Assembly: GCF_000617925.1 (NCBI RefSeq)
Contig: NZ_BAMT01000002.1
Coordinates: forward strand, 372,001 to 436,000
Source of the DNA: Methylobacillus glycogenes JCM 2850
GTDB taxonomy: Bacteria > Pseudomonadota > Gammaproteobacteria > Burkholderiales > Methylophilaceae
Reading direction: 5' to 3'
DNA: 64,000 bases
In this document: one piece after another, positions 255 to 55,719 of the stretch
Layout of the letters: every line of letters begins with the position of its first letter
How positions within the stretch are numbered: position 1 is the first letter of the stretch
The notes under the pieces: model-generated
Told to the model about the DNA's origin: nothing
Databases searched by the model: none
The model's input: the letters and a program-made list of their open reading frames with translations, nothing else
Program-made: the position numbers and the translations under genes

Positions 255-357
255 GTTTGAGGTTTTGAGTGTGAGCTTCTGAGTCTGGGCTTTAGAGCAG
301 GTTTAACAACACCAAGCGTGGTGAGTGCTGTTTTCCATCACAGGTTCAATACAAACT

Positions 358-392
358 CTCCTGCCGCGATTGGGCTCCAATCGAGACAGGAG
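358..392. other. Intergenic hairpin without T-tail
   Basis: Between the convergent trmL and lipoprotein genes lies a strong inverted repeat. CTCCTG (358-363) pairs with CAGGAG (387-392) and CGATTGG (367-373) pairs with CCAATCG (377-383), with a 3-nt internal loop on each side and a 3-nt apical loop. There is no run of T on either strand. It is therefore not a textbook intrinsic terminator, but it may mark or protect the 3' ends of both transcripts. Confidence 0.5.
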
Positions 393-404
393 TGGTCGCT
401 GTCT

Positions 405-1654: not shown

Positions 1655-1977
1655 GTCATTAACCTTTCAAATTTATCCCGCTTGCTAGCACCAGAGCACC
1701 TGATTCGGCCCCAGAGACATGAGGGAAGCTTGTATGTTTTTTTGAAGGAGATCGGCTGTTATGGATGCATGTGGCACTGAAAGGCAGCAGTCAGTAACAC
1801 CCCAACCGCAGCCAGATTAATTGCTATTTGTCTTTAATGTAAAGTCAAATATAGCTATTTAATTGTAAATTTGATCGGGGGTTTGCAGCGGGTGTGACAC
1901 GTCACAGCTATAGGTGTGAATAGAAGGATGTTGCTGAGGTTGAGTGTGAATTCGGGCAGTGAAGCCAGACAGTGAAG
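1655..1977. other. Intergenic region upstream of the GDSL gene and downstream of comF
   Basis: These 323 bases hold the 3' flank of comF and the unidentified promoter of the GDSL gene, both read on the minus strand. An AT-rich stretch lies at about 1815-1875. I found no convincing -35/-10 pair, no intrinsic terminator and no small gene. The only ordered element is the inverted repeat at 1893-1906. Confidence 0.6.
1893..1906. promoter_or_regulatory. Inverted repeat TGTGAC-AC-GTCACA, possible CRP/FNR-type operator
   Basis: The 14-bp element has six-base arms that are perfect inverted repeats separated by two bases. The TGTGA/TCACA half-sites equal the CRP consensus half-sites, but the spacing between five-base halves is four (FNR-like) rather than the six used by CRP. 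It lies about 70 nt beyond the 3' end of comF and about 240 nt upstream of the GDSL gene, so which gene it might control is unclear. It may be chance. Confidence 0.25.
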
Positions 1978-2713
1978 TCAGGTCGTAAAGGTACGCGCGA
2001 TCACCCAGCATTCCACATGAGTGGCACCCGCCGCTTTTACACATTGTGCCAAGGCATTGAGCTGGCGCCTGTGGTCATGACATCATCCAGCAGAATGACC
2101 CGCTGGCCTGTCATGGAGGTATTGCAGGCAAATGCGCCACGCATATTTTTCAAACGCTGCCGATAAGGCAAAGTGGCTTGCGGCGGTGTGGCGCGAGTGC
2201 GCACACAAAGATGCGCTTGCAATGGAATGTTTAACTCACGGCAGAGCGTGCGCGCAATTTCAAGTGATTGGTTGAAGCCCCGCTCTTGCAGGCGTTGCCT
2301 GTGTAGCGGCATGGGAATCAGGCAGTCGGCAGGGAGCTGGGGGGTTGCAATAGCGTGCTGTGAGTCCGCTCTGCCATGGGCCCACCAGGTTTTTGCCAGC
2401 ATCTGACCCAGCATGGGGGCTAGGGCTAGATGTTGGGCATATTTATAACGCTGCAACATGGCGGTGAGTGGAAAGGTGTACTGAAACAGGCTGTGGGTGA
2501 CATCAAATGCAGGCGGCTGCTGCAGACAGCGACCACAGCGCTGGCCTGCGATGGTAGGCAGGGCGCACTGGGGGCAAGCCTGGGGGGTGTCACGATGCTG
2601 GTCATGCCAGGGGAGTTCAGCCAGGCAAGGTGCACATAAGCCAGTGTTGTATGGCTAGCGCTGCGGCAGAGCAGGCAGGCTTGAGGAAACAGCCACTGTT
2701 TGAGCCAGTCCAT
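1978..2713 (-). CDS. comF: ComF family phosphoribosyltransferase-like competence protein (two frameshifts)
   Basis: Once repaired the protein is about 245 residues, the usual ComF length. An N-terminal zinc-finger-like region (CLLC, then CAPC, then further CxxC pairs) is followed by a type I phosphoribosyltransferase domain. Its PRPP-binding loop is VILLDDVMTTGAS. ComF is needed for uptake or processing of transforming DNA in competent bacteria. Two single-base deletions interrupt it. One is at about 2636, where repair gives LALCAPCLAEL; the other is at about 2061, where repair gives GASLNALAQCVKAAGATHVE and a stop at 1978. The ATG at 2713 sits five bases after the stop of the upstream GGDEF-EAL gene, so the two are probably co-transcribed. 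Both lesions look like base-calling errors. Confidence 0.8.
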
Positions 2714-2718
2714 GCAGC

Positions 2719-5294
2719 TCAGGTCGCGCTTTGTAGCTGCCCTTGGCGCGATTGCTCCAAATAGCGCTGGAAGGCGGCGGCAGGTACTGGCGGGGAGTAA
2801 AGGTAACCCTGGGCAAAGTCGCACTTGATCTCAAGTAACAGATCACGCTGCAAGGGGGTTTCCACCCCTTCGGCAATGACTTTGAGGCCTAGCTTGTGCG
2901 CCATGACAATAATAGCCTCGCACAAGGCATAACTTTCATTATTGGCCGCGAGTTGGCTGGTGAAGCTTTGATCTATCTTCAGGTAATCAATATCGAAGCG
3001 GTTTAGGTAGGATAAGGAAGAGAAGCCAGTGCCAAAGTCATCAATCGCGACTTGTATCCCTGCATCGCGGAAGTTAAGTAATTTGTCCTCAATGCTGCGT
3101 TCGGGATTGAACAGCAAGCCTTCGGTGATCTCGACTACAATATTTCTGCCAGTCAGCCCCAGGGTATGCAGATAGTTGAGCCAGTCACTATGTTCAAAGG
3201 TGTTGGCCTGGAATTGCACTGGGGATTTATTGATGCTGACGGAAAAGTCTTCGCCAGCGATGGCCTGCCATTTGACGACATTCTCCGCTGCACGGCGGAA
3301 TATCCAGTCGCCCAACTCGACGATGGCGCCAATTTCCTCTGCTACCGGGATAAATACCGATGGGCTGACCAGCCCTTGCACCGGATGATGCCAGCGCAGT
3401 AATGCCTCGGCTTTTTCAACCCGGCCCGTGGCCAGCTCTATGATGGGTTGGTAATAATCGGCCAATTCATTACGTTCTACGGCCAGACGGATATCCCGCG
3501 CCAGTTGCATGCGCTGCATGGCGGAATCCTGCATGGATTGCGTAAAGAACATGCTGCGGTTACGGCCTTTGTTCTTGGCTTCATACATGGCCTGATCGGC
3601 ATTGCGCATGATTTCGCCGCTGTCACTTGCATCATCGGGATAAACACTGATGCCTATGCTGGCAGAGATATAGACTCTTTCTTCGGCCAGTACATAAGGT
3701 CGGGAGAGATTATCCAGCAGGTTATCGGCGATCTGCTGCAACTGGGCTTTGTCGGCAAGCTGGGGCACGATGATGGCGAATTCGTCACCACCTAATCTAG
3801 CGACAGTATCCGACTGCCGCACGCAACCCTGAATACGTCTGCCTGCGGCCACCAGTAAATCATCTCCCTTGCTGTGGCCCAGCGAATCGTTGACTTCCTT
3901 GAATCTATCCAGGTCTATAGATATCAAGGCCAGCTTGCCATGCTCCTGTCTAGCCTGTTTGATGTGCTGCTCAATACGGGCATTGAACAAATGGCGATTG
4001 GGTAATTGCGTCAGGTTATCGAAATTGGCCTGTTGCCAGATTAATTCGTCTGCGGTTTTCTTTTCTGTGATGTCGATATGAGTGCCACGCATCAGCAAGG
4101 GCTGGCCATCCTCGGTGCGAGAAATCAGCCGACCGCGACTGGTTACCCAAATCCAGCGTTCCTGCTTATGGCGCATGCGGTGGTCAGATTCATAATTTTC
4201 TGTCTGCCCCGAAAAGTGTTGTTCAAGCTTTTCTGTGGCCAGCAGCAAGTCATCCGGATGCATGAGTTTTTTCCAGGTGCTGGCTGTCAGCGGTGTCAGT
4301 TCTGCCAGGGAGTAGCCCAGCATGCTGGCCCAGCGATCATTGAACAGGCATTCCCCAGTTTGCACATTCCATTCCCAGGTGCCTGCACGTGCGCCATCGA
4401 TGATGTCTTGCAGCCGCGTGCGCTCAGTTTCTATCTCGCGGGTTTTCTTGTGTACGGCAATTCTTAGCAGCGCAATCCACAATAAGAGAATGATCCCGGC
4501 GACTGAGGCGGCCAAGATGCCGTAGGCGAGTTCGCGCGAGTAGTGAAAGGTTTCTATGGGCTTGCCCATCCATTTTTTCTCTAAGGTCTTGATTTCTTCA
4601 GGGCTGATCGCAGCCATGCCTTTTTCCACCAGCGCCATGGTGGTCTTATTTTCCTTGCGTACCGCGCGATGGAATTCACCTGTGTACAGAGTGAAAGCCT
4701 TGCGGAACTCATGCTGTCTATCCAGACTGTAGAGGTAATAATGGGCGGGAATCTCATCTAGGCAGAACAGCTTGATTTCTTGCGTCAAGGCCGCTTCTAT
4801 CATGGCCGTGTAATTGTCGTATTGGCGCAGCGAATAAATGCCGTGCTCTTCCAGCTTATCTATGCATGCATCGCCTTTTTGTACACCGACGACAAATCCG
4901 GTCAGGGCGCGGGGGCTGGTAATGCCCGTAATACTTTCATGATTGAAAATAGCCACCGTCTGCTTGGCATAGGCTGGGAGAAGGTATAGAGCGCTTCACG
5001 CTTGGGCGTGCGGTAAAGCATTTCAATCACATCGGCATCACCATGCAGGACACGCGCCTGCGCATTAACCCAGGCGGTGGGCACCAGATTGACCTCAACC
5101 CCGGTTTTTTGCTGCCATAAATCCCAGAGATCCACCAGATAGCCCACGGTGTTGCCATCATCGTCCTTGAACAGATAGGGCGGGTAGTTTTCATCTCCCA
5201 CCACGGTCAGTGACTCGGCCTGTGCAGCGCTAAGCCAGGACGTCAAGGCGAATAAGGCGCTGAGCATAACAAGCTGGCACTGCATTTTCAGCAT
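2719..5294 (-). CDS. Periplasmic-binding-domain / PAS / GGDEF / EAL c-di-GMP [17 protein letters not shown] (frameshifted)
   Basis: The repaired protein is about 858 residues. It has a signal peptide, a periplasmic solute-binding domain of the SBP_bac_3 type (VVGDENYPPYLF), one membrane helix, a PAS/PAC domain, a GGDEF domain and an EAL domain. The diguanylate cyclase motif RLGGDEF is intact, and RQSD lies five residues upstream, matching the allosteric I-site. The phosphodiesterase motifs EALLRW, NKS, DDFGTG, KID and EGVET are also present, so both activities are plausible. A one-base deletion at about 4973 splits the binding domain; adding one C restores FSQPYAKQTVAIFNHES. I prefer the ATG at 5294, ten bases after AGAAAGG, over the GTG at 5303, which almost abuts it. 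The ligand is unknown; the fold suggests a small polar molecule. The gene is divergent from the chemoreceptor gene. Confidence 0.85.
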
Positions 5295-5303
5295 ATCGCT
5301 CAC

Positions 5304-5668
5304 GCCTTTCTGTGAAGTCCCGGTTCGGGGTTGATGGTCAGAAGCAAGTCAAAACGCTTAGCTTTCATGCTGACTAGGATACACCTAGCGGCAAACTCCC
5401 GCAGGCTCAGCCGTGATTTGCTAATAACGACTTGTTATCTTTTGGATTATAAATGTTGTGTAAATATTTGAAATATAAATAAAAATAAATTATCTTTTGC
5501 TGATGGCGCGCAGCTTTTATCTCGCTTGCCATAGGTCGGGGATTCCGGCACATCTGAGAAATACCCCGTTCGATTATTGCTATTCCTTGATGATGTTTGC
5601 GTCAGCCGTGGTCGCATTAATGCTACGCATGTGCTGAACGCAAACCGGGGAGTCCGGGAGCGTGAAGC
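5304..5668. other. Divergent promoter region between the GGDEF-EAL gene and the chemoreceptor gene
   Basis: This 365-base region must contain promoters for both flanking genes. It has a markedly AT-rich core at about 5430-5500. I could not assign a sigma-70 or flagellar sigma-28 promoter with confidence. A GGGAG purine block at about 5654-5658 is the probable ribosome-binding site of the chemoreceptor gene. No small gene is evident. Confidence 0.5.
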
Positions 5669-7477
5669 ATGAAATTCGCAGATATAAAAATCGGCATTAG
5701 GCTGGGTCTGGGTTTTGCCACGGTACTCATGCTAATGGTCTCTATGGTGTTGCTGGGCTATATCCAACTGGTGCGTGTAGGCGATGTGGCCAGAAAAATG
5801 ACCGAGGAAGAGTTGATCAAGGAGCGGCTGACGGCAGAGCTGGCCTCCAACGTACGCCAAACCGGTATACGTGCCCTGGCAGCCGTGACGAGTACAGACC
5901 CGGCCATGGTCGAGTTTTTTAAAGATCGTATTCGGGAGACCGAAACAGAGGACGACGAGATCATCAACAAGCTGGAGGCCAGGTTAAGCCAAGCTGAGGG
6001 CAGAGCCAGGCTTGCCGATGCTCAGGAGAAAATTCAGAGTTTGGTGGCGATTCGTGAAGATTTGCTCAGCCAGCGCGCCAAGGGGATGGACCAGGAAACG
6101 ATTAACCGCCTTGTAAGCAGTGAGTTTTTACCCGCGCGACAAGCCTGTTTTGACAGCATAGCGGCGTTTGCCGAGTTTGGACGTGGCGTCATCAATGCCG
6201 CTGGTGAGGATATTCAAAGCAACAAGCGCTTTGGTATTTATATGCTTTTGGCATTGGGCGGATTGGCGATTGCACTCGGTATGTTCATGGCATGGCGGCT
6301 CGCACGCGGGATTACCCAGCCACTGGCGCAGGCACTCACATTGGCAAAATCAGTGGCCGCTGGAGACCTCACTAGCAATATCAATGTCACTGGCCATGAT
6401 GAAATAGCGGAGCTGCTGCAGGCACTCAAGACCATGAACGATAATCTGGCGCAAATTGTGACCGAGGTGCGCAGTGGGGTTGATACTATCGCTACCGCTT
6501 CAGGTGAAATTGCCAGCGGCAATCTTGACCTCTCTGCCCGGACTGAGCAGCAGGCCAGCTCACTGGAGCAAACCGCCTCAGCCATGGAGCAGTTGACCTC
6601 TACCGTCAAGCAGAATACCCAAAGCGCCAACCAGGCCAACCAGCAGGCTGGTTCAGCTTCTGACGTGGCAATCAAGGGTGGCCAGGTGGTAGATCAAGTC
6701 ATCGCCAGCATGGGGGCTATCAATAATGCCTCCAAGCGTATTTCCGAGATCATAGGCGTGATCGATGGCATTGCCTTCCAGACCAATATTCTTGCTCTGA
6801 ATGCAGCCGTCGAGGCCGCCAGGGCTGGTGAGCAGGGACGTGGCTTTGCAGTGGTGGCGACCGAAGTGCGTAGCCTGGCTCAGCGCTCAGCCAATGCCGC
6901 CAAGGAGATCAAGGGCTTGATCACCGACTCGGTAGAGAGTGTTGCGGCAGGTAGCCAGCAGGTTGAGCAGGCGGGTCTTACCATCAAGGAGGTGGTCGAT
7001 AGCGTCAACCGCGTCAGCAGCATTGTGCGTGATATCAGCGTGGCCAGTGATGAACAGGCCACGGGGATAGAGCAGATTAATCAGGCCATCATGCAAATGG
7101 ATGATGTGACTCAGCAAAATGCAGCCTTGGTAGAGCAAGCCGCGGCGGCTTCGCAATCATTGCAACATCAGGCGGAAAATCTGGCTCGCGCGGTCAGTGT
7201 TTTCAAAATCAATGGCCAGCTTGCAACATCAATCTCGCGAGCACTGCCAGTGCAGAGCGCGGCTAAATTTCAATACCTGAGAGCAGCCTCTGGCATCAGC
7301 CCTGTACCTGTTAAGCCTTTAATCACTAGCCCAGTTGTTCCGCGCCCGCAGCAAGTGACGCGTCAGCACCAGGATCAAGAAGCAGGCACTCTGCAAACGC
7401 AGGCTGGGCCCGCTACAACCTCAGGCAAGCCAATGGTTAATGGTGCGGGCGATGCAGAAGAATGGACGGAATTTTAG
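5669..7477 (+). CDS. Methyl-accepting chemotaxis protein
   Basis: This 602-residue transmembrane chemoreceptor has TM1 at about 12-34, a periplasmic four-helix-bundle-type ligand domain, TM2 at about 188-208, a HAMP linker (about 209-262) and a long cytoplasmic coiled-coil [16 protein letters not shown]. The highly conserved hairpin tip is intact (GIAFQTNILALNAAVEAARA, about 365-385), so it should dock CheA and CheW. The C-terminus ends in EEWTEF, resembling the tethering pentapeptide (NWETF-like) that recruits CheR/CheB in major receptors. No che gene is adjacent. The ligand cannot be read from the sequence. The divergent GGDEF-EAL neighbour suggests this locus couples sensing to motile/sessile choices, which is an inference. 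Confidence 0.92.
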   Translation: MKFADIKIGIRLGLGFATVLMLMVSMVLLGYIQLVRVGDVARKMTEEELIKERLTAELASNVRQTGIRALAAVTSTDPAMVEFFKDRIRETETEDDEIINKLEARLSQAEGRARLADAQEKIQSLVAIREDLLSQRAKGMDQETINRLVSSEFLPARQACFDSIAAFAEFGRGVINAAGEDIQSNKRFGIYMLLALGGLAIALGMFMAWRLARGITQPLAQALTLAKSVAAGDLTSNINVTGHDEIAELLQALKTMNDNLAQIVTEVRSGVDTIATASGEIASGNLDLSARTEQQASSLEQTASAMEQLTSTVKQNTQSANQANQQAGSASDVAIKGGQVVDQVIASMGAINNASKRISEIIGVIDGIAFQTNILALNAAVEAARAGEQGRGFAVVATEVRSLAQRSANAAKEIKGLITDSVESVAAGSQQVEQAGLTIKEVVDSVNRVSSIVRDISVASDEQATGIEQINQAIMQMDDVTQQNAALVEQAAAASQSLQHQAENLARAVSVFKINGQLATSISRALPVQSAAKFQYLRAASGISPVPVKPLITSPVVPRPQQVTRQHQDQEAGTLQTQAGPATTSGKPMVNGAGDAEEWTEF

Positions 7478-7633
7478 CGCTGCAAGCCAGGGTATTAGCA
7501 GGATAGGCTTGGTCTCTCAGCCTTAGGTTGAGTGCAGGGGGCAATTCCTACAGCACTTTCCTATTACGCTGATACGCTTTACCCTGCTTGCGCTGCACAG
7601 TGTGCATATTCAAACACTGGAAAAGAGACCATC

Positions 7634-8398
7634 ATGCAGCGATTTACCAACAAGGTTGTTATTGTCACCGGAGCAGGCTCCGGCATAGGCGCTGCCACCG
7701 CGCAACGTTTCTCTAGCGAAGGTGCAAAAGTAGTGCTGGCAGGCAGAACCCTGGAGAAGTTACAGGCTATCTCCCAGCCGCTGGCCCCTGAACGCACAGC
7801 CATCAAGCAAACCGATGTCTCACGCCAGCAAGATGTTAAGGCGCTGATTGCGTTTGCGCTGGAAAAGTTTGGCCAGCTCGATGTGCTGGTCAATAATGCG
7901 GGTATTTATGCTGATGGCGATGTCACTGAAGTGAGTGAGGAAGATTGGGCGCAGGTACAAGCTACCAACGTCAATAGCATTTTCTATGGAGCACGCGAGG
8001 CTATTCCGCACTTGGCTAAAACCGGGGGTTGCATCGTCAATACAGCTTCGGTTTCTGGTCTGGGCGGCGATTGGAAAATGAGCGCCTATAACACTTCCAA
8101 AGGTGCGGTGGTCAATCTCACCCGCGTTTTGGCAATGGATTTTGCGCGCCAGGGCATACGTGTCAATGCGGTCTGTCCCAGTTTTACCTTCACCGATATG
8201 ACCGCAGATATGGCAGAAGATCAGGAGTTGCTGGAGAAATTTTATGAGCGAATTCCTTTGGGGCGAGGTGCCCAACCCGAGGAGATCGCTGCGGCGATTG
8301 CCTTCCTCGCCAGCACCGATGCGTCATTTATTACTGGCGTTAATCTGCCCGTAGATGGTGGCTTGACTGCTTCCAACGGTCAGCCACCCGGGGGCTAA
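7634..8398 (+). CDS. SDR family NAD(P)-dependent oxidoreductase
   Basis: This is a 254-residue classical short-chain dehydrogenase/reductase. It has the cofactor-binding motif TGAGSGIG near the N-terminus, NNAG after the fourth strand, and the catalytic Ser-Tyr-Lys set in NTASVSGLGGDWKMSAYNTSKG. The C-terminal portion ends with the usual FITGVNLPVDGG. An open frame extends upstream to 7532, but the ATG at 7634 matches the family N-terminus and follows a purine-rich GGAAAAGAGA. It is probably monocistronic between the chemoreceptor and csaA. The substrate is unknown; similar proteins include 3-oxoacyl-reductase-like and glucose dehydrogenase-like enzymes. Confidence 0.88.
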   Translation: MQRFTNKVVIVTGAGSGIGAATAQRFSSEGAKVVLAGRTLEKLQAISQPLAPERTAIKQTDVSRQQDVKALIAFALEKFGQLDVLVNNAGIYADGDVTEVSEEDWAQVQATNVNSIFYGAREAIPHLAKTGGCIVNTASVSGLGGDWKMSAYNTSKGAVVNLTRVLAMDFARQGIRVNAVCPSFTFTDMTADMAEDQELLEKFYERIPLGRGAQPEEIAAAIAFLASTDASFITGVNLPVDGGLTASNGQPPGG

Positions 8399-8564
8399 TG
8401 AGTCAAGCCTGGTAATAATTCTCAGTGAAATGGCGGTTGGTGGTACACAGAGATTGGTTTTAGAGATCGTGATGATATTCACCACCGCCGTGCAGTACAC
8501 ACACTCTGTAAGGTTGTATGTAAGTCTGTTGCGAGGCTGCACCTCTCTATGGCTTCAGTCGGCA

Positions 8565-8924
8565 TCAAAGCAATTTGGTGCCGATAGGCACATCCAAATC
8601 CGGCACGCACAAAGCCACTTCTCCTTCCGCATTATGGAATCCTGTCACCAGGCATTCAGACATCATGCTGCCTATCTGTTTTTTCGGGAAATTCACCACC
8701 GCTACCACTAATTTGCCGATCAGGGTTTCAGCTGGGTATAAGGCGGTAATCTGCGCGCTGGATTTTTTGCTGCCTATTTCAGGCCCAAAGTCGATCAGCA
8801 AGGTATAAGCGGGTTTACGCGCGCTGGTATTGAGTTCAGCCTGCACTACCCGGCCTACGCGTAGATCAACCTTGAGAAAGTCTTCCCAGTCGATCAATGG
8901 TTGTGTTTGCTGCACGTGTTGCAT
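8565..8924 (-). CDS. csaA: CsaA-like tRNA-binding-domain protein
   Basis: The 119-residue protein consists of a single EMAP-II/Arc1p-type OB fold. Recognisable stretches are VDLRVGRVVQAE, YTLLIDFGPEIG, SSAQITALY and VAVVNFPKKQIG, the last being a hallmark of CsaA and of the C-terminal domain of MetRS. The family binds tRNA as a dimer and has been reported as a secretion-related chaperone in Bacillus; its role in proteobacteria is unsettled. It converges with the SDR gene and is divergent from the bio-operon membrane protein. Confidence 0.85.
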   Translation of the reverse strand: MQHVQQTQPLIDWEDFLKVDLRVGRVVQAELNTSARKPAYTLLIDFGPEIGSKKSSAQITALYPAETLIGKLVVAVVNFPKKQIGSMMSECLVTGFHNAEGEVALCVPDLDVPIGTKLL

Positions 8925-8992
8925 CCTTATGCGATGAGATTTCTTGATGAAGAGAATTCGAGTTGTTCAATTTTTAATCATATGTAAAGCGT

Positions 8993-9022
8993 TTGTTAAG
9001 GCTATCCTTGACAGGCTATAAT
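8993..9022 (+). promoter_or_regulatory. Putative sigma-70 promoter of the bio operon
   Basis: TTGTTA (8993-8998) and a perfect TATAAT (9017-9022) are separated by 18 bases. The expected start of transcription at about 9029 lies 20 nt before the ATG at 9049. It would drive the small membrane protein and bioB-F-H-C-D. I saw no clear BirA operator, although betaproteobacterial biotin operators are not well known to me. Confidence 0.5.
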
Positions 9023-9048
9023 CCGGCTTTCGTTTCCACTTTCAGATC

Positions 9049-9435
9049 ATGGCTACCAAAATCATCACGCCCAAGCAGCAGATGCGGGCGGCTCAGAGTT
9101 TTGCGTTTTTCTCCAGTGTCGCGATTGTGGTGCCGGTGTTGATTCCATTTTGGATTGCGGCTTCGATTTTTGCCTATGCCTCAACCGCCAATCATCCCTG
9201 TACGCGTGTATGTGAGTATTTGGTGCCCGCAGGTTACCGCTTCTATGGCCTGTTGGGAACCTGGGTAGTGCTGCTGAATTTCAGTTCCAATATGGCAGGC
9301 TGGGTGGGTGGTGCGCTCAATCTGGCGATCATTATCTGGGTGGTCAGTATTCTCGTCATTGTGCCATTGGGCATTAGGGACATCCTGCGGGCTCAGCATG
9401 AGCCATGGCAGAAAATTACTATAGAGACAGAGTAA
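9049..9435 (+). CDS. Small membrane protein of unknown function at the head of the bio operon
   Basis: I do not recognise a named family for this 128-residue protein. Hydrophobic segments lie at about 21-45, 65-85 and 88-110, giving two or three membrane helices. A Cys-containing loop ([14 protein letters not shown]) lies between the first two. The N-terminus is basic and the C-terminus charged. It ends 11 bases before bioB with the promoter-like element upstream of it, so it is very probably co-transcribed with the biotin genes. A role in biotin or precursor transport would be speculation; it may simply share the promoter. Codon usage resembles that of its neighbours, so expression as a real protein is likely. 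Confidence 0.75.
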
Positions 9436-9446
9436 GGAATTTAAAC

Positions 9447-10454
9447 ATGCTTGAATCCGTTATTGATATTCGCGGCCTGGACAATGCCGAGCGCAGCAAG
9501 GTGCAGGCGCGTGCCGAAGCACCGCAACGCTGGACAGTTGATGAAATTGTCGCCTTGTTTGAATTGCCTTTTGCAGACCTGATGCACCAGGCGCAGACCG
9601 TGCACAGAGAGAATTTTGACCCCAATGGTGTGCAAGTCAGCACCTTGCTTTCCATCAAGACGGGTGGCTGTTCCGAGGATTGCGGTTATTGCCCGCAAGC
9701 CGCGCGTTATCACACCGATGTGGAAAAGCAGGATTTGATGCAGCTGGAAGAAGTGCTGGCAGCCGCACGTGCCGCCAAGGAAAACGGCGCTAGCCGCTTC
9801 TGTATGGGTGCTGCCTGGCGTAGCCCCAAGCAGCGTGACCTGGAACCTGTGCTGAAGATGATTCAAGAGGTGAAGGCCATGGGTTTGGAAACCTGCGCCA
9901 CGCTGGGCATGTTGAAAGATGGTCAGGCTGAGCAGCTCAAGGATGCGGGCCTGGACTACTACAACCACAATCTCGACACCGCGCCTGAATACTACGGCGA
10001 TGTGATTACTACGCGTACCTACCAGGACCGTCTGGATACTCTGGATAGAGTGCGTAATGTGGATATCAACGTTTGCTGCGGCGGCATCATAGGCATGGGC
10101 GAATCCCGTCCCCAGCGCGCTGGCCTGCTGGCGCAGTTGGCCAATATGGAACGTCCACCTGAAAGTGTGCCCATCAATCTGCTGACGCAGGTGGAAGGCA
10201 CGCCTATGTATGGTACCGATGAGCTTGATCCGTTTGAATTTGTGCGCACCATTGCGGCTGCGCGTATCACCATGCCGCAAAGCTTTGTGCGTCTTTCAGC
10301 TGGTCGTCAGAGCATGCATGAAGGCATACAGGCTTTATGCTTCCTGGCAGGTGCCAATTCCATCTTCTATGGTGAGAAATTGCTGACTACAGGCAACCCT
10401 GAAGCCGAGGCGGACAAGGCCTTGTTCGGCAAGCTGGGTATACATCCGCTGTAA
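9447..10454 (+). CDS. bioB: Biotin synthase BioB
   Basis: This 335-residue radical-SAM enzyme inserts sulfur into dethiobiotin, the last step of biotin synthesis. The SAM-binding 4Fe-4S cluster motif C75-x3-C79-x2-C82 lies in [14 protein letters not shown]. The conserved blocks [28 protein letters not shown] and RLSAGRQ, the last carrying the Arg ligand of the 2Fe-2S cluster, are all present. The ATG at 9447 is chosen because AAGGAA lies seven bases upstream and it matches the family N-terminus. It is the first recognisable gene of the plus-strand run bioB-F-H-C-D. Confidence 0.97.
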
Positions 10455-10456
10455 GC

Positions 10457-11647
10457 ATGTCCATGCAGATGCAATCCAGCCCGGCTGGGGATATGTTGCA
10501 GGGATTGCACTTGGAACTGGCGCAGCGCGCAGAACAGGGTTTGCTGCGCCAGCGTCGCATGCTGCAAGGCATGCAGGGCGCGCATGTCGTCATTAACGGT
10601 AAGCGCTTGCTCTCTTTTTGCAGCAATGACTATCTAGGCCTGGCCAGCCATCCCGCATTGATCTCCGCGATGTCAGAAGCCGCCCAGCAATATGGTGCGG
10701 GCAGTGGTGCCTCGCATCTGGTCACCGGGCATCAAACTGCCCATGAAGTGCTGGAGCAGCGCTTGCAGCAATTCATGGCTGTGCCTGCGGTGTTGCTGTT
10801 CAGCACGGGTTATATGGCCAATCTGGGCATCATCACCGCCTTGTGTGGTCGTGATGATGAAATCTTTGCTGATAAGCTCAACCACGCTTCGCTTAACGAT
10901 GCCGCGGTACTGTCACGTGCCAGCCTCAAGCGTTATGCGCATAACGACATCACTAGCCTGGAGCGCTTGCTGGCGCAAAGTAGCGCCAGGCGCAAGCTGG
11001 TGGTCGCTGATGCCGTGTTCAGCATGGATGGGGATATTGCCCCCGTACCTGCGCTGCTGGCACTGTGCGAACGTTACGATGCCTACCTGATGCTGGATGA
11101 TGCCCATGGCTTTGGCGTGCTTGGTGCAAAGGGTCGCGGCATTCTCGAACATTTCAATCTCAGTTCGCCACGCATTATCTATATGGCAACCCTGGGCAAG
11201 GCCGCTGGTAGTGCGGGTGCTTTTGTTGCGGCTGAGCAGGTGGTGATTGATTATTTGCTACAGTCAGCCAGGTCGTATATTTACACCACAGCCAGCCCGG
11301 CACCTGTGGCGGCGGCAGCACTGGCTGGTGTAGATATCATTTCTTCCGAGCCGCAGCGGCGTCAAGATTTGCAGCAATTGATCACCTATTTGCAGCAGCA
11401 CTGCCAGCTGCAGCGTTGGCAGCTCTTGCCCTCGAATACTGCAATACAACCCATCATCATAGGCAGCAATGATGAGGCTTTGCGCGTAAGTAAGCACTTG
11501 CAGGAGCACGGTATTCTGGTGGCTGCCATCCGTCCGCCTACCGTGCCCAAGGGCACAGCCAGGTTGCGTATTTCGCTTTCGGCCCAGCATACAGAACAAG
11601 ATGTAGCGCATCTGCTGAATGCTTTACATGAGATAGAGGTCGCATGA
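10457..11647 (+). CDS. bioF: 8-amino-7-oxononanoate synthase BioF
   Basis: This is a 396-residue PLP-dependent alpha-oxoamine synthase that condenses pimeloyl-ACP/CoA with alanine. The signatures are FCSNDYLGLA, the glycine-rich GAGSGASHLVTG, DDAHGFGVLG, and the PLP-binding Lys248 in ATLGKAAGSAG. It starts two bases after the bioB stop and overlaps bioH by four bases (ATGA), consistent with translational coupling. Its length agrees with the family norm of about 385-400. Confidence 0.96.
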   Translation: MSMQMQSSPAGDMLQGLHLELAQRAEQGLLRQRRMLQGMQGAHVVINGKRLLSFCSNDYLGLASHPALISAMSEAAQQYGAGSGASHLVTGHQTAHEVLEQRLQQFMAVPAVLLFSTGYMANLGIITALCGRDDEIFADKLNHASLNDAAVLSRASLKRYAHNDITSLERLLAQSSARRKLVVADAVFSMDGDIAPVPALLALCERYDAYLMLDDAHGFGVLGAKGRGILEHFNLSSPRIIYMATLGKAAGSAGAFVAAEQVVIDYLLQSARSYIYTTASPAPVAAAALAGVDIISSEPQRRQDLQQLITYLQQHCQLQRWQLLPSNTAIQPIIIGSNDEALRVSKHLQEHGILVAAIRPPTVPKGTARLRISLSAQHTEQDVAHLLNALHEIEVA

Positions 11648-46488: not shown

Positions 46489-48733
46489 ATGCGACTACCC
46501 AAGCTGATTTCTCACCACACTTTGCGCAGGCTATTGGGCATGCTGGTGCCTATCTTGCTGATGGTGCAGGTTGCAGGCGGCATGGACAGCCAGGTGCTGC
46601 GTAGCCTGGAACGCTTTGCCTATGATGCCAGGCTCAAGCTCACCATGCCGGGTGGCGTGGATGAGCGCATTGTGATTGTCGATATCGATGAGGCCAGTTT
46701 GCAGCAAGAGGGGCATTGGCCCTGGAGCCGTGACAAACTTGCCTTGTTGCTGGATCAGTTGTTTGAGCGTTATGGCGCTGATGTGGTGGCGTTTGACGTG
46801 GTGTTTGCCGAGGCTGATCAAAGTTCAGGCTTGCCAGTGTTGCAACGGTTGCAAAGCCAGCAGTTGCACGACCAGGCGGGTTACAAAGCCGCACTTGCCG
46901 CGCTGGAGCCGGAACTCAACTACGATCAACGTTTTGCCAACAGCATGCAGGGGCGCCGTGTGGTGCTGGGCTATTATTTTCGTCACGATGGTGAGGCCAG
47001 CCACAACATAGGGCTGTTGCCGCCTGCGGCACTGGATGCCAGTGTGCTGCAGGCCATGCCCCATATGGCGGTGATGGCAGCCAATGGTTACGGTGCCAAT
47101 CTACCCCAGTTACAACAGCAAGCCGCTGCGGCTGGACATTTCAATCCTGAACCTGATGATGACGGCATCACCCGCCGCGTGCCTTTGTTGGTGCAGCATG
47201 GCGATGGTTTGTATGAGTCACTGGCGCTGGCCGTGACACGTCTCGCCTTGGGTGAGCCACAACTCACTGCGGGCATAGAGCAATCTGCTGGTTATAACAG
47301 CCTGGAGTGGATAGGGCTGGGCCAGCGCAGGCTGCCTGTGGATGCCAATATCACCGCCTTGATTCCTTATCGCGGACCACAAGGCAGCTTTTCCTATATC
47401 GCCGCCAGCGATGTGCTGCATGGTCGTGCACCTCTATCGGCATTAAAGAGCAAGATAGTGCTGGTGGGCACCAGTGCTCCTGGCCTCATGGATTTGCGCG
47501 CCACGCCAGTACAAAGTGTTTACCCCGGGGTGGAAGTACACGCGAATATGATTGCTGGCATGCTGGATGGCAATTTGCGTCATGCGCCAGATTACAGAAC
47601 GGGTGCAGAAATATTGCTGCTAGTTATCCTGGGGTTAAGCTTGGCTTATTATCTGCCTGCCCTGAGCCCATTGGCGGGCACAGTTTTGAGCCTTGCGGTG
47701 TTGCTTGGCTTGGTAACAGGCAATTTGGTGCTTTGGCGTGCCGGGCTGGATTTACCCTTGGCCTCGCCACTATTGGCGGTTGTGCTGATCTATGTGCTCA
47801 ATGTGAGTTATGGCTACTTCATTGAGTCCCGCAGCAAGCGGCATTTGACCCAATTATTTGGGCAATATGTGCCGCCAGCCTTGGTCAGCGAGATGGCTGC
47901 CCAGCCCGTAAATTTTGGGCTGGAGGGTGAGAATCGTCAGATGACGGTGCTGTTCTGTGATATTCGTGGCTTCACCAGTATTTCCGAGGCGCTGCCACCG
48001 CAGGAACTGGCCAAGCTCATGAACGAGTATCTCAGCGCCATGACCGAGGTGATACACCAGCATCGTGGCACTATAGACAAATACATGGGCGATGCATCAT
48101 GGCCTTTTGGGGGGCGCCGCTGCATGATGAGCAACATGCAAATCATGCAGTAGCGCGGCAATCGGCATGCTGCAGGCGCTGCAAGAGGTCAATACGGCTT
48201 TTTACCAAAAAGGCTGGCCCAGGTTGGAGATAGGCATAGGGCTCAATAGTGGGGAAATGACGGTAGGCAATATGGGTTCGGCCTTTCGCATGGCTTATAC
48301 CGTGCTGGGCGATGCGGTGAATCTGGGCGCCAGACTTGAAAGCTTGTCACCATATTATGCTGAACCACTCATCTTGAGTGAGGCGGTCTGCCTGGCGGCA
48401 ACGCAATACCATTACCGCGAACTTGATCTTGTGCGCGTAAAAGGTAAAGATGCTGCTGTACGTATTTATGCGCCGATTCTGGATAGCGCTGCACAAATAG
48501 TGACAAGCTCTGAGGCCGAGCAGCAATCACTGCACTATGCCCAGGCATTGTTACACTATAGAGAACAACATTGGCAGCAAGCGCGGACAGCATTTCTGGA
48601 TTTACAGTCAAGGTTTGGGGAGCGAAGAATTCATCACATCTATCTAGCACGTATCGCCGAATGCATGAGCCAGCCTCCAGAGCCGCAATGGCAGGGCATT
48701 CATCGCTTCGATAGCAAACAGGGGCCAGCATGA
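46489..48733 (+). CDS. CHASE2-domain adenylate cyclase, class III (two frameshifts)
   Basis: The repaired protein is about 748 residues: an N-terminal membrane anchor, a large extracytoplasmic CHASE2 sensor (IVIVDIDEASLQQEGHWPWS to YPGVEVHANMIAGML), two or three membrane helices at about 365-440 and a cyclase catalytic domain. Metal-binding Asp are D491 (FCDIRGFTS) and D535 (DKYMGDA). The purine-specifying pair is Lys531 and Thr605, the class IIIb adenylate pattern, with Asn612 and Arg616 in place for catalysis. Two one-base deletions break it, at about 48096 (repair: GDAIMAFWGAPLHDEQ) and about 48155 (repair: HAVAAAIGML). Its stop overlaps the start of the next gene by four bases. Confidence 0.88.
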
Positions 48734-49494
48734 AGCTCGAAGTGTTGGGTTGCGGTGGCGGCGTAGGCCAAGGTCAGCGTACGACCTCTTTCTTGATTGA
48801 TGAGCTTATTCTGCTGGATGCAGGTAGCGGCGTGGGCGAACTGAGCATTACGCAACTTGAAGCCATTGATCATGTGTTTCTTACCCATGCCCATCTCGAT
48901 CACACGGCATTTTTGCCCTTCCTGCTCGATACCGTGTTGGGTAGGCGGCAAGCCCCCGTGGTGGTGCATGCTCTGGCGGAAACCATCGCTGTCTTAAAAG
49001 CACATATTTTTAATTGGCAAGTCTGGCCAGACTTCAACCAGATTCCGTCACTGGAACATCCTCTTTTGCAGTATGCGCCGCTAGTGGTGGGCGAAACGGT
49101 GAATGTTGGAAAAACCCGAATTACCGCCTTGCCTGCGCGGCATAGTGTGCCCGCACTCGGTTATTTGATTGAAGGCGAGGGTGGCGGCATTGCTTTCAGC
49201 GGAGATACTACCCACAACGATGCGTTCTGGCATGCGCTCAATCAGGTACAAAATCTACAGCACCTGATTATTGAGACTGCATTCAGCAATGCCGATATTG
49301 AGCTGGCCAAACTCTCTTGCCATCTTTGCCCTTCCTTATTGCTGAAGGGGCTTGATCTGCTGCAGTCTCGCCCTCGGGTGTGGATTACCCACCTCAAGCC
49401 CGGCGAGGCAGACAGCATCATGAACGACATTGAGCAATTACAGCATCCATTAGCGCCACAAGCCCTGCAGCATGGGCAGACCATAACCTTGTGA
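48730..49494 (+). CDS. Metallo-beta-lactamase-fold hydrolase, probable class II-like cyclic-nucleotide phosphodiesterase
   Basis: The 254-residue protein has the metallo-hydrolase metal motif H53-x-H55-x-D57-H58 in FLTHAHLDHTAFLP. The N-terminal LGCGGGVGQGQRTTSFLI, then ARHSVPALGYLIEGEGG, FSGDTTHN and LIIETAFSN follow the order seen in class II 3',5'-cyclic-nucleotide phosphodiesterases and their relatives. Its translationally coupled position between an adenylate cyclase and a cyclic-nucleotide-binding protein strongly supports cAMP hydrolysis, but the activity is inferred. Related folds include RNase Z and arylsulfatases. Confidence 0.75.
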   Translation: MKLEVLGCGGGVGQGQRTTSFLIDELILLDAGSGVGELSITQLEAIDHVFLTHAHLDHTAFLPFLLDTVLGRRQAPVVVHALAETIAVLKAHIFNWQVWPDFNQIPSLEHPLLQYAPLVVGETVNVGKTRITALPARHSVPALGYLIEGEGGGIAFSGDTTHNDAFWHALNQVQNLQHLIIETAFSNADIELAKLSCHLCPSLLLKGLDLLQSRPRVWITHLKPGEADSIMNDIEQLQHPLAPQALQHGQTITL

Positions 49495-49500
49495 GAACCT

Positions 49501-50556
49501 ATGCACATCCTTGAAACCTTTTTGCTGCAACTTGAACCCATACTTTCACTATCGAAAGCTCGTTTGCATGAATTGGCGACACTGAGCTTTATTGAGTACG
49601 TCAATCAGGACATTGATCCCTGGCGTCTGAACGTCAACAAAAACTCCCAAGTGTTATATCTCTTGCAGGGTGAGTTGGCGATTAATCATGTTGATGGCAG
49701 CAGCCGGGTGTTGGTGGGGGGTAGCGAAGAAGCCAAATTTCCTGTGGGCAGTGGTCCACTGCCGGTGAAAGATACTCGTGCCCTGACTGATATCCAGATA
49801 GTGCGTATTGATACCGACTTGCTGGACATTATGATGACCTGGGATCAGCTTGCGGGAGATGAGCTCGAGCTTGAGGCCAGTTTACCGCAAACACCGGAAG
49901 TGCCAGATCAAGCCAAATGGATGCGGCAAACCGAGGTGTTTGGCGTAGCCAAATTACAGAATGGCTTGTTCAGTCGATTACCGGCTGCAAATATTGAAGA
50001 AATGTTCAGGCGTATGGAACTGCTGCCAGTGGTCATAGGGCAGGTCATTATTCGCCAGGGCGAAGAAGGTGATTATTATTACCTGATTGACCAAGGCCAA
50101 GCCTTGGTGAGTCGCAGACCTGCTCCCGGGCAGCCTGATGTCATTCTTGCAGAGCTTGGTCCGGGGTCGGCTTTTGGTGAAGAGGCTTTGGTGAGCAGCA
50201 ATCGCCGCAATGCCACCATCGTTATGAAAACCGGTGGTCTATTGCTCAGGCTGAAAAAGCAGGATTTCCTCGAATTATTGCAGACACCGCTTTTACAGCA
50301 AGTGACGGTTGCGCAAGCTGAGCAAATGGTCAAAGAAGGGGCCAAGTGGCTGGATGTGCGCTTGCCTGCAGAGTATGACTATCAGCATCTTCCTAACGCG
50401 ATCAATACGCCTTTGTATGATTTACGCAAACTACTGAATAATCTGGATAAATCGCAAAGCTATATCACTTACTGTCATACTGGACGACGTAGCTCGGCAG
50501 CTGCAATCATCCTGCTGGGGCATGGATTTGATGTAAGTATTCTGGGCCACGAATAA
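49501..50556 (+). CDS. Cyclic-nucleotide-binding protein with C-terminal rhodanese domain
   Basis: The 351-residue protein appears to hold two cNMP-type beta-barrels and a rhodanese domain. The first barrel (about 1-115) lacks a phosphate-binding cassette and looks degenerate. The second (about 158-265) has a near-canonical cassette FGEEALVSSNRRNATI (about 225-240), including the Glu and Arg that contact the cyclic phosphate. The rhodanese domain (about 268-351) has WLDVRLPAEYDYQHLPNAIN and an active-site loop YCHTGRRSS with Cys325. There is no helix-turn-helix, so it is not a CRP-type regulator. It lies six bases after the phosphodiesterase-like gene, the third member of the cassette. Confidence 0.85.
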   Translation: MHILETFLLQLEPILSLSKARLHELATLSFIEYVNQDIDPWRLNVNKNSQVLYLLQGELAINHVDGSSRVLVGGSEEAKFPVGSGPLPVKDTRALTDIQIVRIDTDLLDIMMTWDQLAGDELELEASLPQTPEVPDQAKWMRQTEVFGVAKLQNGLFSRLPAANIEEMFRRMELLPVVIGQVIIRQGEEGDYYYLIDQGQALVSRRPAPGQPDVILAELGPGSAFGEEALVSSNRRNATIVMKTGGLLLRLKKQDFLELLQTPLLQQVTVAQAEQMVKEGAKWLDVRLPAEYDYQHLPNAINTPLYDLRKLLNNLDKSQSYITYCHTGRRSSAAAIILLGHGFDVSILGHE

Positions 50557-50581
50557 TAAAAAACCCGCTCGTAAGCGGGTT
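50556..50581 (-). terminator. Intrinsic terminator of pilA, shared 3' region with the cNMP cassette
   Basis: AACCCGCT (50562-50569) and AGCGGGTT (50574-50581) form an eight-pair stem with a four-base loop. The A-rich stretch on its left is the T-tail for minus-strand transcripts, so it should end pilA. It may also serve the convergent rhodanese-protein transcript, which lacks a T-tail here. Confidence 0.8.
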
Positions 50582-50605: not shown

Positions 50606-51043
50606 TTAAGAAGCTGCACCTGTGCATACTGCCACTGGGCCGATATGACGTTGCAAGGCTGTCGACGCGCATGTCCATGCACCTGTTGTGGCGTTACGAG
50701 TCAAGGTGATGGTGCGAGTGGCTACAGTGCTTGGGCCATTCACAATCGTCGCAGTCAATGTACCGGATGTGGCGAGAGCAATTGTGGTATTTGCGTTGCT
50801 AGCTTGAACACCTATGTAAGCTGAGCCATCAGGTGGTGGGTTTGTTAAGGTCGGTGTCAAACCTTCATTCAACGCCAGATCAAAACCTGTTTTTCCGGGT
50901 GCCACTTCAGCCAATGCTGCAGCCCATTTAGACTTGGCGGTGTAATCTTGGTAAGACGGAATCGCTACCGCAGCCAGAATACCGATAATCGCAACAACGA
51001 TCATCAGTTCGATCAGAGTAAAACCTTGTTGTACCTTTTTCAT
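50606..51043 (-). CDS. pilA: Type IV major pilin PilA
   Basis: This is a 145-residue class IVa prepilin. The short leader MKKVQQG precedes cleavage before Phe8, giving a mature N-terminus [20 protein letters not shown] with Glu5, the standard assembly residue. The globular domain ends with a disulfide-bounded D-region between Cys in WTCASTALQ and VAVCTGAAS. PilB and PilC are encoded 15 kb away. The ATG at 51043 is fixed by the leader. A sigma-54 promoter lies upstream. Confidence 0.95.
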
Positions 51044-51108
51044 CGCTAACCCCTTTGTTTGGTTTGGTTGACTGTTGCGGTATGCACTACACCGCGTGCT
51101 CAGAGTAT

Positions 51109-51124
51109 TGCAACCTGCGTGCCA
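51109..51124 (-). promoter_or_regulatory. Sigma-54 promoter of pilA
   Basis: On the minus strand TGGCAC (51124-51119) is followed after five bases by TTGCA (51113-51109), a full match to the -24/-12 consensus TGGCAC-N5-TTGCA. Transcription should start near 51097, about 54 nt before the pilA ATG. RpoN with PilS/PilR controls pilA in pseudomonads; the same logic is inferred here. The regulator genes are not in the window. Confidence 0.85.
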
Positions 51125-51180
51125 ACTTTTATAAAAAGATGACTTGTTATTGAAAATAAAGGATATTTTCAATGCGCAAC

Positions 51181-51895: not shown

Positions 51896-52908
51896 TCAAT
51901 GTGACGTCTTGAGAATAAACTGCCCAAAGGCCCGGCTTTGCTTGCCAGTCGGGATGTCCTTCAGGTGTTTATGACTACTGGCGTCTATCACTGAAACTGA
52001 GTTGTCAAACCAGTTGGCAACATAAATCTTTTGGCGCTTAGCATCGTAATTGATGCCTTCGGGGAAGCCGCCTACATGTATCTTGCTGATTTCCTTGCCT
52101 AGCTCTAGGTCTATAACTGAGACCGAATCGGCCTGGGTATTGGTGACATAAGCATAACGATTATCCGGACTGACAATCACGCAGTAAGGATGTTCACCCA
52201 CGGCTATGGTCTGGCTGCTGCCATTGCTCAGGTCAAGGATGGATAAACTATTGGCGTAGACATTGACGCTGAATACTTTTTTGCTATCCGCGCTGGCAGC
52301 GATGCCAAAGGGGTGAGCGCCAGTGGCAATGCGCTGCAATACCTTGAGGCTGGTGGTGTCTATAATGGCAAGGTCATTGCTGTCACGGTTGGCAACCAGC
52401 AGTTTGCTGCCGTCAGGGCTGATCATAATGCCAGCAGGGGCCTTGCCTATGCTGACTTCACGGCGTTCTGCCGTGTTGGCGGTATTGATCGCCAATATAC
52501 GGTTGTCATTCCAGTCGGCCACATACAAGGTGCGGCTGTCGGGTGAAAGGGCAATGCCCACTGGCGAGCTGCAATATCGATAGTGTCGGTCACTTGCAGT
52601 TGCTGGCTATCAATCACCGAGACGGAGTGACTGTCTACATTGCTGATGTAAACCTTACCTAGCTTGGCCGAGGTAGCCACCCCAACTGGCGACTTGCCTA
52701 CGGCTATCGTGGCAGTGACTTGTAATGTGTCCAGATCAATCACAGAAACCGTGTTGTCACCCTGGTTGGTGATATAGGCCTGATCAGCCATGGCAGGCGT
52801 AAAGGCAACCAGTGCCAGCAGGGCCAAGCCTAGCGTAGTGACAATATGTTGCACTTTGGAATAAGCAATGTTGGCGAGATGCGACTTGGAGATATGAGTT
52901 GTTGCCAT
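51896..52908 (-). CDS. YVTN-type beta-propeller repeat protein, exported (frameshifted)
   Basis: Repaired length is about 337 residues. A signal peptide ends at about TPAMA-DQ. Seven or so beta-propeller repeats follow with the signature pattern AYITNQGDNTVSVIDLDT, VYISNVDSHSVSVID, LYVADWNDNRILAIN, AYVTNTQADSVSVIDLE, IYVANWFDNSVSVID. The YncE/YVTN family includes proteins linked to quinoprotein dehydrogenases, fitting the MxaD-like gene 94 bases downstream. One base is missing at about 52568; with it the join reads DIAASPVGIALSPDS. No catalytic residues are evident; a binding or scaffolding role is likely. Confidence 0.82.
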
Positions 52909-53748: not shown

Positions 53749-54596
53749 TTATTGTGCTTGCGCCATAGCCTCGCCCAGGCGTACCGCTCCGCGGGGTGCC
53801 CAGTTGCCGGAAAACGCCAATTTGAAAGTAGCCGGGTAGAGCAGGACTACGGTAGAGCCCAGCAAGAAGCGTCCCATCTCATCCCCTTGCTCCAGCACAA
53901 TGTTTTGATCCTCATAATGCCAAGTTTGCACGCGACCAGGGCGCGGCGGATTGACGATGCCATGCCAGATGGTGGCCATGCTGCCGACGATGGTGGCACC
54001 CACCAATACCAGGACGAAATTACCCTCTGAGGTGGCAAACTCGCAGACAACGCGCTCATTGCGCGCAAACAGGCCGGGAATGTTTTCCGCGGTGGCGGGA
54101 TTAACCGAAAACAAGTCGCCGGGCACATAAGTCATGCTCAGCAACTTGCCGCGGCATGGCATATGGATGCGATGGTAATCCCTGGGGCTAAGGTAGATAG
54201 TGGCAAAATGCCCATTATCGTATTGCTTGGCCATCTCGCCATTGCCCGCAAGTAAAGTGCGGGTGGAGTAATCATGGCCCTTGGCTGGAAGATTTGGTCG
54301 TGCTTGATCTCACCAAACTGGCTGATGGCACCATCCACTGGGCAGATTTGGCTGGCCTGCGCCAGGGGGCGTGCGCCTGGCTTTAATGCCCGTGTGAAAA
54401 ACTCATTAAAACTAGCATAGCTTTCAATCGCAGGGTTGGCGGCCTCTGCCATGTTGACTTGATAGCGGCCCACAAACCAGCGTATGACCGCAGTGGTGAG
54501 CTTGCCCGCGCGTAGATGTGCCAGTTTGCCTGCCAGTACGGTCAGGGCGGTCTTGGGAATCAGGTATTGCAGCTTGACGATGCAAGAGGATGCCAT
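53749..54596 (-). CDS. psd: Phosphatidylserine decarboxylase Psd (frameshifted)
   Basis: Psd makes phosphatidylethanolamine from phosphatidylserine on the inner membrane. Repaired length is about 282 residues. The sequence contains FNEFFTRALKPGARPL, CPVDGAISQFGEI, SPRDYHRIHMPC and the self-cleavage site LGST (in GRFLLGSTVVLL), where the pyruvoyl group forms. One base is missing at about 54285; repair joins the halves as QAKGHDYSTRTLLAGNGEMAK. The gene is essential in most Gram-negatives, so the break is probably a sequence error. Confidence 0.94.

Positions 54597-54700: not shown

Positions 54701-55719
<1,019 letters not shown>

Follow-up and report, generated by a model that had tools for sequence, protein, structure and literature searches.

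A conserved bacterial family of predicted cAMP receptors that carry a rhodanese domain

The locus and the anatomy of the effector

Three genes follow one another on the same strand of the window (the whole stretch of DNA analysed here, 64,000 nucleotides in length): a CHASE2 cyclase, an MBL-fold putative cNMP phosphodiesterase and, third in the row, the protein at the centre of this study, hereafter the effector (Table 1). The effector is encoded by a single open frame, from ATG to stop, of 351 residues plus the stop codon, and stops interrupt the frame examined on the opposite strand. An assembly artefact was ruled out for this ORF, as the frame is open and relatives could be matched up to residue 348. 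The last three residues are unlike those of relatives and are given no weight, because the C-terminal ends of the two nearest relatives differ likewise. A promoter and terminator scan placed a hairpin at 50562-50581, near the end of the effector gene, and assigned it to the minus strand.

Table 1. Features of the effector locus in window coordinates
Feature	Position	Strand	Basis
CHASE2 + class III cyclase; frame broken at about 48090-48167 (ORFs 46489-48153 and 48167-48733)	46489..48733	+	Pfam
MBL-fold protein; HAHLDH motif; PDEase_II (class II cAMP phosphodiesterase) over cut-off	48730..49494	+	Translation, Pfam
Effector ORF, 351 aa: degenerate CNB barrel + CNB + rhodanese	49501..50556	+	Translation, Pfam, conservation, model
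First barrel, residues 1-125; predicted CNB fold without phosphate-binding cassette; conserved D104, D109, T113, W114	49501..49875	+	Model, fold match, conservation
Second barrel, CNB domain (Pfam residues 180-262 plus helix to 265); cassette E227/R236	50038..50295	+	Pfam, invariance
Rhodanese domain, Pfam residues 270-348	50308..50544	+	Pfam, fold matches
Rhodanese active-site loop CHTGRR, C325 to R330	50473..50490	+	Translation, conservation in relatives

An earlier note, made from the sequence alone, had described the protein as a degenerate barrel followed by an intact cNMP barrel and a rhodanese, a layout borne out by the one open frame, by Pfam and by the fold of the modelled first barrel. 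Pfam recognised cNMP_binding (PF00027; E 6.2e-19, 68.2 bits against a cut-off of 27.5) and Rhodanese (PF00581; E 1.5e-13, 51.4 bits against 22.2), and at E up to 10 it found no other domain in the protein. At the same threshold there was no helix-turn-helix behind the CNB domain, where the rhodanese adjoins directly; a CRP/FNR transcription factor was thereby ruled out, in agreement with the note's suggestion of an effect without transcription. By profile, fold and motif the protein is a member of both domain families, CNB and rhodanese. The phosphate-binding cassette FGEEALVSSNRRNATI occupies residues 225-240. A six-residue active loop of the form C-x4-R marks the sulfurtransferase type of rhodanese, and the CHTGRR loop, six residues long with Cys first, points to that type for the effector.

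An AlphaFold2 model of the full protein, a prediction proposed in the earlier note and built here from 80 aligned sequences, reached a mean pLDDT of 89.2 and a pTM of 0.77. PKG and PKA, with their tandem CNB domains, provide its best matches among solved structures (Foldseek; 4z07, E 1e-17). Helix 253-264 continues straight into the first rhodanese elements (DSSP on the model) and leaves no room for the usual CNB C-helix, the place of which the rhodanese would appear to occupy.

Pfam finds no domain in the first 125 residues of the window protein, and nine of 67 N-terminal barrels of the family match PF00027 at E up to 0.1, the best at 2e-4. Modelled alone, these residues gave a pLDDT of 90 and matched the CNB-B domain of PKG (5l0n) with a Z of 10.8 and 3.0 Å over 107 residues in the VIA fold-match listings, from which the absence of a family does not rule that family out. 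Neither the translation nor the alignment of the window protein revealed a Glu/Arg cassette in this part, as the note had stated; on the strength of the fold matches we therefore read the first barrel as having a CNB fold but no cassette.

Conservation of the family and its association with cyclases

A tblastn search over named genomes, at E up to 1e-3, returned 308 candidate loci, the best 80 of which were used for counts in relatives. The nearest relatives come from Methylobacillus gramineus (L073, 71%) and M. caricis (L059, 68%), and the titles of the best 80 loci name no class other than Betaproteobacteria, some saying only Pseudomonadota. Three alignments were made: one of 19 intact members from 61 genomes (the window's own and 60 relatives), with the window's member included, one of the window protein with 79 of the best 80 loci (L092 omitted), and one of the window protein with 66 of the 80. 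Among the best 80 relatives, E227 and A229 are found in all, R236 in 79 and N237 in 78, while C325, R329 and R330 are each present in 80 of 80; the claims that the second barrel keeps its Glu and Arg, and that Cys325 lies in a catalytic-type rhodanese loop, thus hold well beyond the window. D104, D109, T113 and W114 of the first barrel are likewise found in 80 of 80 each, and by these alignments the first barrel is itself conserved, with a signature of its own.

The three-part module was detected by profile, at E up to 1e-40, in 127 of 274 genomes sampled from the class; the effector represents a family and is no rarity, though the note had called it unusual. In a sample of the phylum, a threshold of E 1e-60 leaves 10 of 249 genomes with a match, each of them labelled as the own genome, the same order or the same class. 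A plasmid-borne effector was considered and rejected, no plasmid record covering 80% of the effector query.

The phosphodiesterase gene lies directly upstream of the effector in 79 of the best 80 loci, and a cyclase belongs to the operon in 55; 24 loci have the phosphodiesterase only, and one has neither. In these counts three loci with upstream sequence too short to judge (L064, L087, L112) stand as having no cyclase, and L106 was scored positive on a partial match (39% identity). For the window's MBL-fold protein, in which HAHLDH represents the HxHxDH motif, PDEase_II (PF02112) scores 47.4 bits against a cut-off of 23.7; Lactamase_B_2 outscores it at 66.2 bits, and the NCBIfam cyclic-nucleotide phosphodiesterase model reaches 38.8, far below its cut-off of 400.

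Both pieces of the broken cyclase pass the Pfam cut-off for PF00211. Among 39 cyclases of relatives that pass two motif patterns, DKY[MI]GD is found in 36 and YT-x-MGD in at least 37, motifs that we take to be of the adenylate type. Two genomes of the same genus carry intact cyclases of 741 and 742 residues at the same site, and ilvC (97% identical to that of a sister species), psd and a beta-propeller gene of the window are also split when compared with sister species; the split of the cyclase is for these reasons probably an assembly error, real decay being the alternative. The frame changes relative to relatives fall at 48090-48167 in the cyclase, 52531-52567 in the beta-propeller gene, 54276-54285 in psd and 54898-54904 in ilvC, and small assembly indels are their likely cause. 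A second class III cyclase of the window's genome (L200 5351-6295) is open for 315-344 residues, against about 416-473 in many relatives; truncation, or a break that arose in the assembly, may explain the difference.

Across the 61 genomes, the effector is present in 22 (intact in 19), every one of which also has a PF00211 cyclase, and in none of the 17 cyclase-free genomes (one-sided Fisher test, 9.5e-5, which ignores kinship). Within the window's family the counts are 18/0/7/12 (2.7e-5, kinship again ignored), and with the 19 intact copies only, the same kinship-blind test gives 4.7e-4 overall and 3.5e-4 in the family. The three incomplete copies are due to frame changes (G015), a contig end (G016) and a separation into two pieces 1.6 kb apart (G027). 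The two pieces in G027 sit on a short contig; in G015 (L052 7405-7839) the broken effector is followed by a second rhodanese-like stretch.

Seven genomes have the phosphodiesterase and the effector with no cyclase in the operon (G002, G005, G009, G012, G015 with its broken effector, G026 and G031), and all seven have another cyclase elsewhere. Two genomes of the window's own genus (G001, G004) carry the cyclase and the phosphodiesterase and no effector, so that the three genes are not an obligate unit; in G030 the effector is also absent, but the contig stops just past the phosphodiesterase. Neither the operon with its cyclase and putative phosphodiesterase nor the co-occurrence with cyclases had been foreseen in the earlier note.

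In two genomes of one genus (G014 and G033; loci L054 6800-7200 and L055 6840-7250) only the first barrel is left, as proteins of 150 and 149 residues that share a new tail and show a dN/dS of about 0.09, with dS near saturation. These genomes have no cyclase match, and neither phosphodiesterase nor CNB nor rhodanese at the effector site. In G011 the first barrel is broken, and the genome has one weaker cyclase match (1e-9). The barrel that the note called degenerate thus keeps a signature of its own and survives alone in two genomes.

Genomic settings and longer relatives

The surroundings of the operon resemble those of the window in 42 of the best 80 loci and are different in 38, among which L067, on a short contig, is counted. 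At those of the 38 loci with room, a GAF-MshEN-T2SSE ATPase gene lies downstream in 32 of 32 and a GAF-HD-GYP gene in 23 of 23; upstream, FHA and PP2C genes are found in 28 of 28 and a Ser/Thr kinase gene in 25 of 28. The corresponding counts for the 42 window-like loci are 0/35 for the ATPase, 0/32 for HD-GYP and 0/34 for the upstream FHA/PP2C/kinase set. Outside Methylophilaceae, then, the operon sits in a fixed cluster that runs from kinase, PP2C and FHA genes to the pilus-type ATPase and HD-GYP genes. The domains of these neighbours were named by Pfam on L103, where the order (3-11361) is kinase, PP2C, FHA, CHASE2 cyclase, phosphodiesterase, effector, GAF/MshEN/T2SSE ATPase and GAF/HD-GYP. 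This row combines Ser/Thr phosphorylation, cAMP and c-di-GMP parts.

In a quick tree of the effector (25 open branches), a single branch divides 44 window-like rows from 37 others with 99% SH-aLRT. Given this one division between the two settings, the module looks chromosomal and vertically inherited, with either a loss of the outer neighbours or one move of the module. The state of the cyclase requires at least 12 changes along the same tree, a count that omits L064, L087 and L112 and includes L099 and L102, which have short upstream sequence.

The cluster suggests that the process controlled in other Betaproteobacteria is a type IV pilus-type machine. A close relative of the cluster ATPase is encoded elsewhere in the genome of some Methylophilaceae; with a threshold of E 1e-100, no such relative was found in the window's genome. 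A type IV pilin gene (Pfam) adjoins the effector on the opposite strand at 50606-51172. For the window's organism, the pilus link is therefore a suggestion.

To describe the surroundings of stand-alone copies in the wider class, 22 loci were taken and 20 were usable (L181 and L190 being without a stand-alone copy). An aroE gene lies downstream in 8 and an amtB-like gene upstream in 7 of these 20; further genes recur at fewer loci, and no one common gene context was found.

The module also occurs in much longer proteins. In 20 loci picked for long frames, 22 of 24 module-bearing ORFs exceed 430 residues, with the module at or near the start of the chain. Two stretches matching PF00027 were seen in 13 of the 18 long proteins scanned, and five of the 18 (L157, L160, L165, L166 and L167; 1322-1984 residues) end in an FGE-sulfatase domain. 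L161 (4793-11664) and L163 (3597-9373) each hold two divergent adjoining genes with the module near the start and long stretches after it, and a Pfam scan of three of these four genes found no further domain.

Ten stand-alone copies and 22 copies longer than 430 residues from the wider class were compared (32 in all, L151 having been dropped as a duplicate of L166). E227 and R236 are present in 32 of 32, and thus in every fused copy. C325 is kept in 10 of 10 stand-alone copies against 20 of 22 fused ones, R329 in 9 of 10 against 4 of 22, and T113 and W114 in 10 of 10 against 8 and 10 of 22. With the residues of the loop and of the first barrel eroded in this way, the cassette is, as judged by alignment, the most constant part of the module, while the rhodanese loop and the signature of the first barrel are tightly conserved in stand-alone copies but loosely so in fused copies. 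Rhodanese chemistry may consequently be dispensable in the longer fused relatives. The argument that an apparently catalytic Cys speaks against a purely structural rhodanese therefore stands for operon-type relatives and is weakened by the two fused copies that lost the Cys and kept the cassette.

At the position of the lost cassette, a QPRQ-like motif occurs in the first barrel of 8 of 10 stand-alone and 15 of 22 fused wider-class copies (for example L157 and L168); by alignment it is absent from the window protein. A first-barrel site remodelled for another ligand is possible in these wider-class members.

Proposed mechanism, rival readings and known systems

The reading that we prefer, and to which we would give about an even chance, is that the effector is a non-transcriptional cAMP receptor with a sulfurtransferase-type rhodanese as its output, the ligand, the gating and the chemistry being what we infer from sequence. 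The CHASE2 cyclase would synthesise cAMP and the MBL-fold phosphodiesterase would degrade it. Bound by the second barrel via E227 and R236, cAMP would shift the cassette together with the helix that follows it. As the rhodanese is attached directly to this helix, without a C-helix in the model, the movement would open or cover the active-site loop bearing C325. Acting on a partner, the rhodanese would then accept sulfane sulfur or hand it on. With its canonical cAMP binding presumably lost, the first barrel could mediate docking or dimerisation and have a function in its own right. The near-universal phosphodiesterase, the cyclase in 55 of the 80 loci, the co-occurrence across genomes and the conservation of E227, R236, C325 and R330 support this reading; that C325 and R330 do not vary in operon-type members favours rhodanese chemistry. 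The 25 loci with no cyclase in the operon count against the reading, although in three of these the upstream sequence is too short to judge.

It is somewhat unlikely, in our estimate, that the rhodanese is instead a non-catalytic surface of a cAMP receptor, the ligand altering which partner is held, be it the pilus-type ATPase, a kinase or another protein. The eroded loop of the fused members would fit such a surface, and the two among them that lost C325 while the cassette persisted in 22 of 22 indicate that the rhodanese is replaceable as an output there. The grafting of the module onto long proteins points the same way, as do the fixed neighbours of the L103 cluster, which include pilus-type proteins and not sulfur enzymes, the ATPase being present at all 32 loci with room. 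Such a surface hardly accounts for C325, R329 and R330, each invariant in the best 80 relatives, or for C325 in all ten stand-alone wider-class copies, a constancy that exceeds the needs of a mere surface.

The nature of the ligand deserves separate consideration. The residue after the cassette Arg is usually Ser, Thr or Ala, and the Asn found there in 78 of the best 80 relatives makes the choice of ligand uncertain. That the ligand is cGMP or a pyrimidine cNMP and not cAMP nonetheless seems unlikely to us: the substrate of the phosphodiesterase is a prediction from its family match, and models of Pycsar cyclases (PycC) match the cyclase domain of a relative with a best E of 3.7e-29, both of which would leave room for such a ligand, but the cyclase motifs, by the rule that we take to apply, are of the adenylate type.

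We see a slimmer chance still that the signal runs in reverse, with the rhodanese Cys sensing sulfane sulfur or redox state and adjusting either the module's output or its affinity for cAMP. The cassette and the C325 site are conserved together, which would suit a coupling in either direction; yet the operon both makes and destroys the nucleotide, which argues for cAMP as a dedicated input, and no sulfur-donor gene was seen among the fixed neighbours, in surveys of neighbours that were aimed at other genes.

Hardly credible is a Pycsar-like anti-phage system, in which an alarm nucleotide from the cyclase would switch on a CNB effector: a class III cyclase and a CNB effector do stand together, the L103 cyclase matches PycC (PADLOC, 3.7e-29) and the effector's CNB region (residues 166-262) weakly matches TIR effectors (PADLOC, best 1.5e-5), but only common domains match, Pfam reveals no TIR or other output, the operon has a phosphodiesterase of its own, inheritance looks vertical with a syntenic site in 42 of 80 loci and no plasmid record covering 80% of the query, and where Pycsar pairs a PycC cyclase with a TIR or membrane CNB effector, the output here is a rhodanese.

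If the preferred reading of a cAMP receptor with sulfurtransferase-type output is correct, it would tie cAMP directly to sulfur chemistry. A bolder extension, which strikes us as improbable, is a class-wide effector family in which persulfide chemistry on a type IV pilus-type motor is under the control of cAMP. Ser/Thr phosphorylation (kinase, PP2C, FHA), cAMP (cyclase, phosphodiesterase, receptor), c-di-GMP (MshEN ATPase, HD-GYP) and sulfane sulfur would then meet in one cluster that forms a single switch of surface behaviour.

Transcription factors make up the majority of the cAMP receptors known from bacteria. The family described here represents a widespread and strongly conserved predicted cAMP-receptor architecture with an enzyme-type output, found alongside its own cyclase and phosphodiesterase and set, in many Betaproteobacteria, within a fixed kinase/pilus-ATPase/c-di-GMP cluster. 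Among the open-access journal papers listed for this subject, none that describes a fusion of CNB and rhodanese domains, or the kinase/pilus-ATPase cluster, was seen.

Several known systems share parts of this design. The tandem CNB domains of PKA and PKG regulatory regions have two barrels in a row like the effector (4z07, Z 16.9, rmsd 11.1 Å over both barrels), whereas the effector is bacterial, has a first barrel without a cassette and carries a rhodanese in place of the kinase. The rhodaneses of PspE (2jtq) and CoAPR (8a56; Z 14.9, 1.1 Å over 84 residues, 38% identity) have the same fold as that of the effector, which by sequence also matches single-domain and CoA-disulfide/persulfide-reductase-linked rhodaneses; unlike the effector, PspE and CoAPR have no CNB domain attached. 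In family 2 encapsulins, both domains are found near sulfur chemistry, as in the effector: family 2B shells have a CNB insert, and family 2A cysteine desulfurase operons have rhodanese accessory genes. The passages of that paper drawn on here place the two domains in separate proteins of different subfamilies and describe no fusion (PMC8346489).

Closer in principle are enzymes that cAMP controls without transcription. The CNB part of mycobacterial Pat (NCBIfam NF058543; 4orf), a non-transcriptional cAMP-bound enzyme, matches the effector (E 2.2e-11, Z 14.6), but the output of Pat is an acyltransferase and the effector lies far below the Pat family cut-off (43 against 460 bits). Bd1971 of Bdellovibrio, the CNB fold of which matches that of the window protein (VIA listing), is a cAMP-sensing EAL c-di-GMP phosphodiesterase in which, according to the sections of its paper used here, the part under CNB control is a fused enzyme and not a DNA-binding domain, as we propose for the effector (PMC6717892). 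The same sections describe Bd1971 as having one barrel, a hinge, a C-helix and an EAL output, against two barrels, a rhodanese and no C-helix in the model of the effector (PMC6717892). Thus cAMP-gated enzymes such as Bd1971 are known, and the CNB/CNB/rhodanese architecture would add a further form to them.
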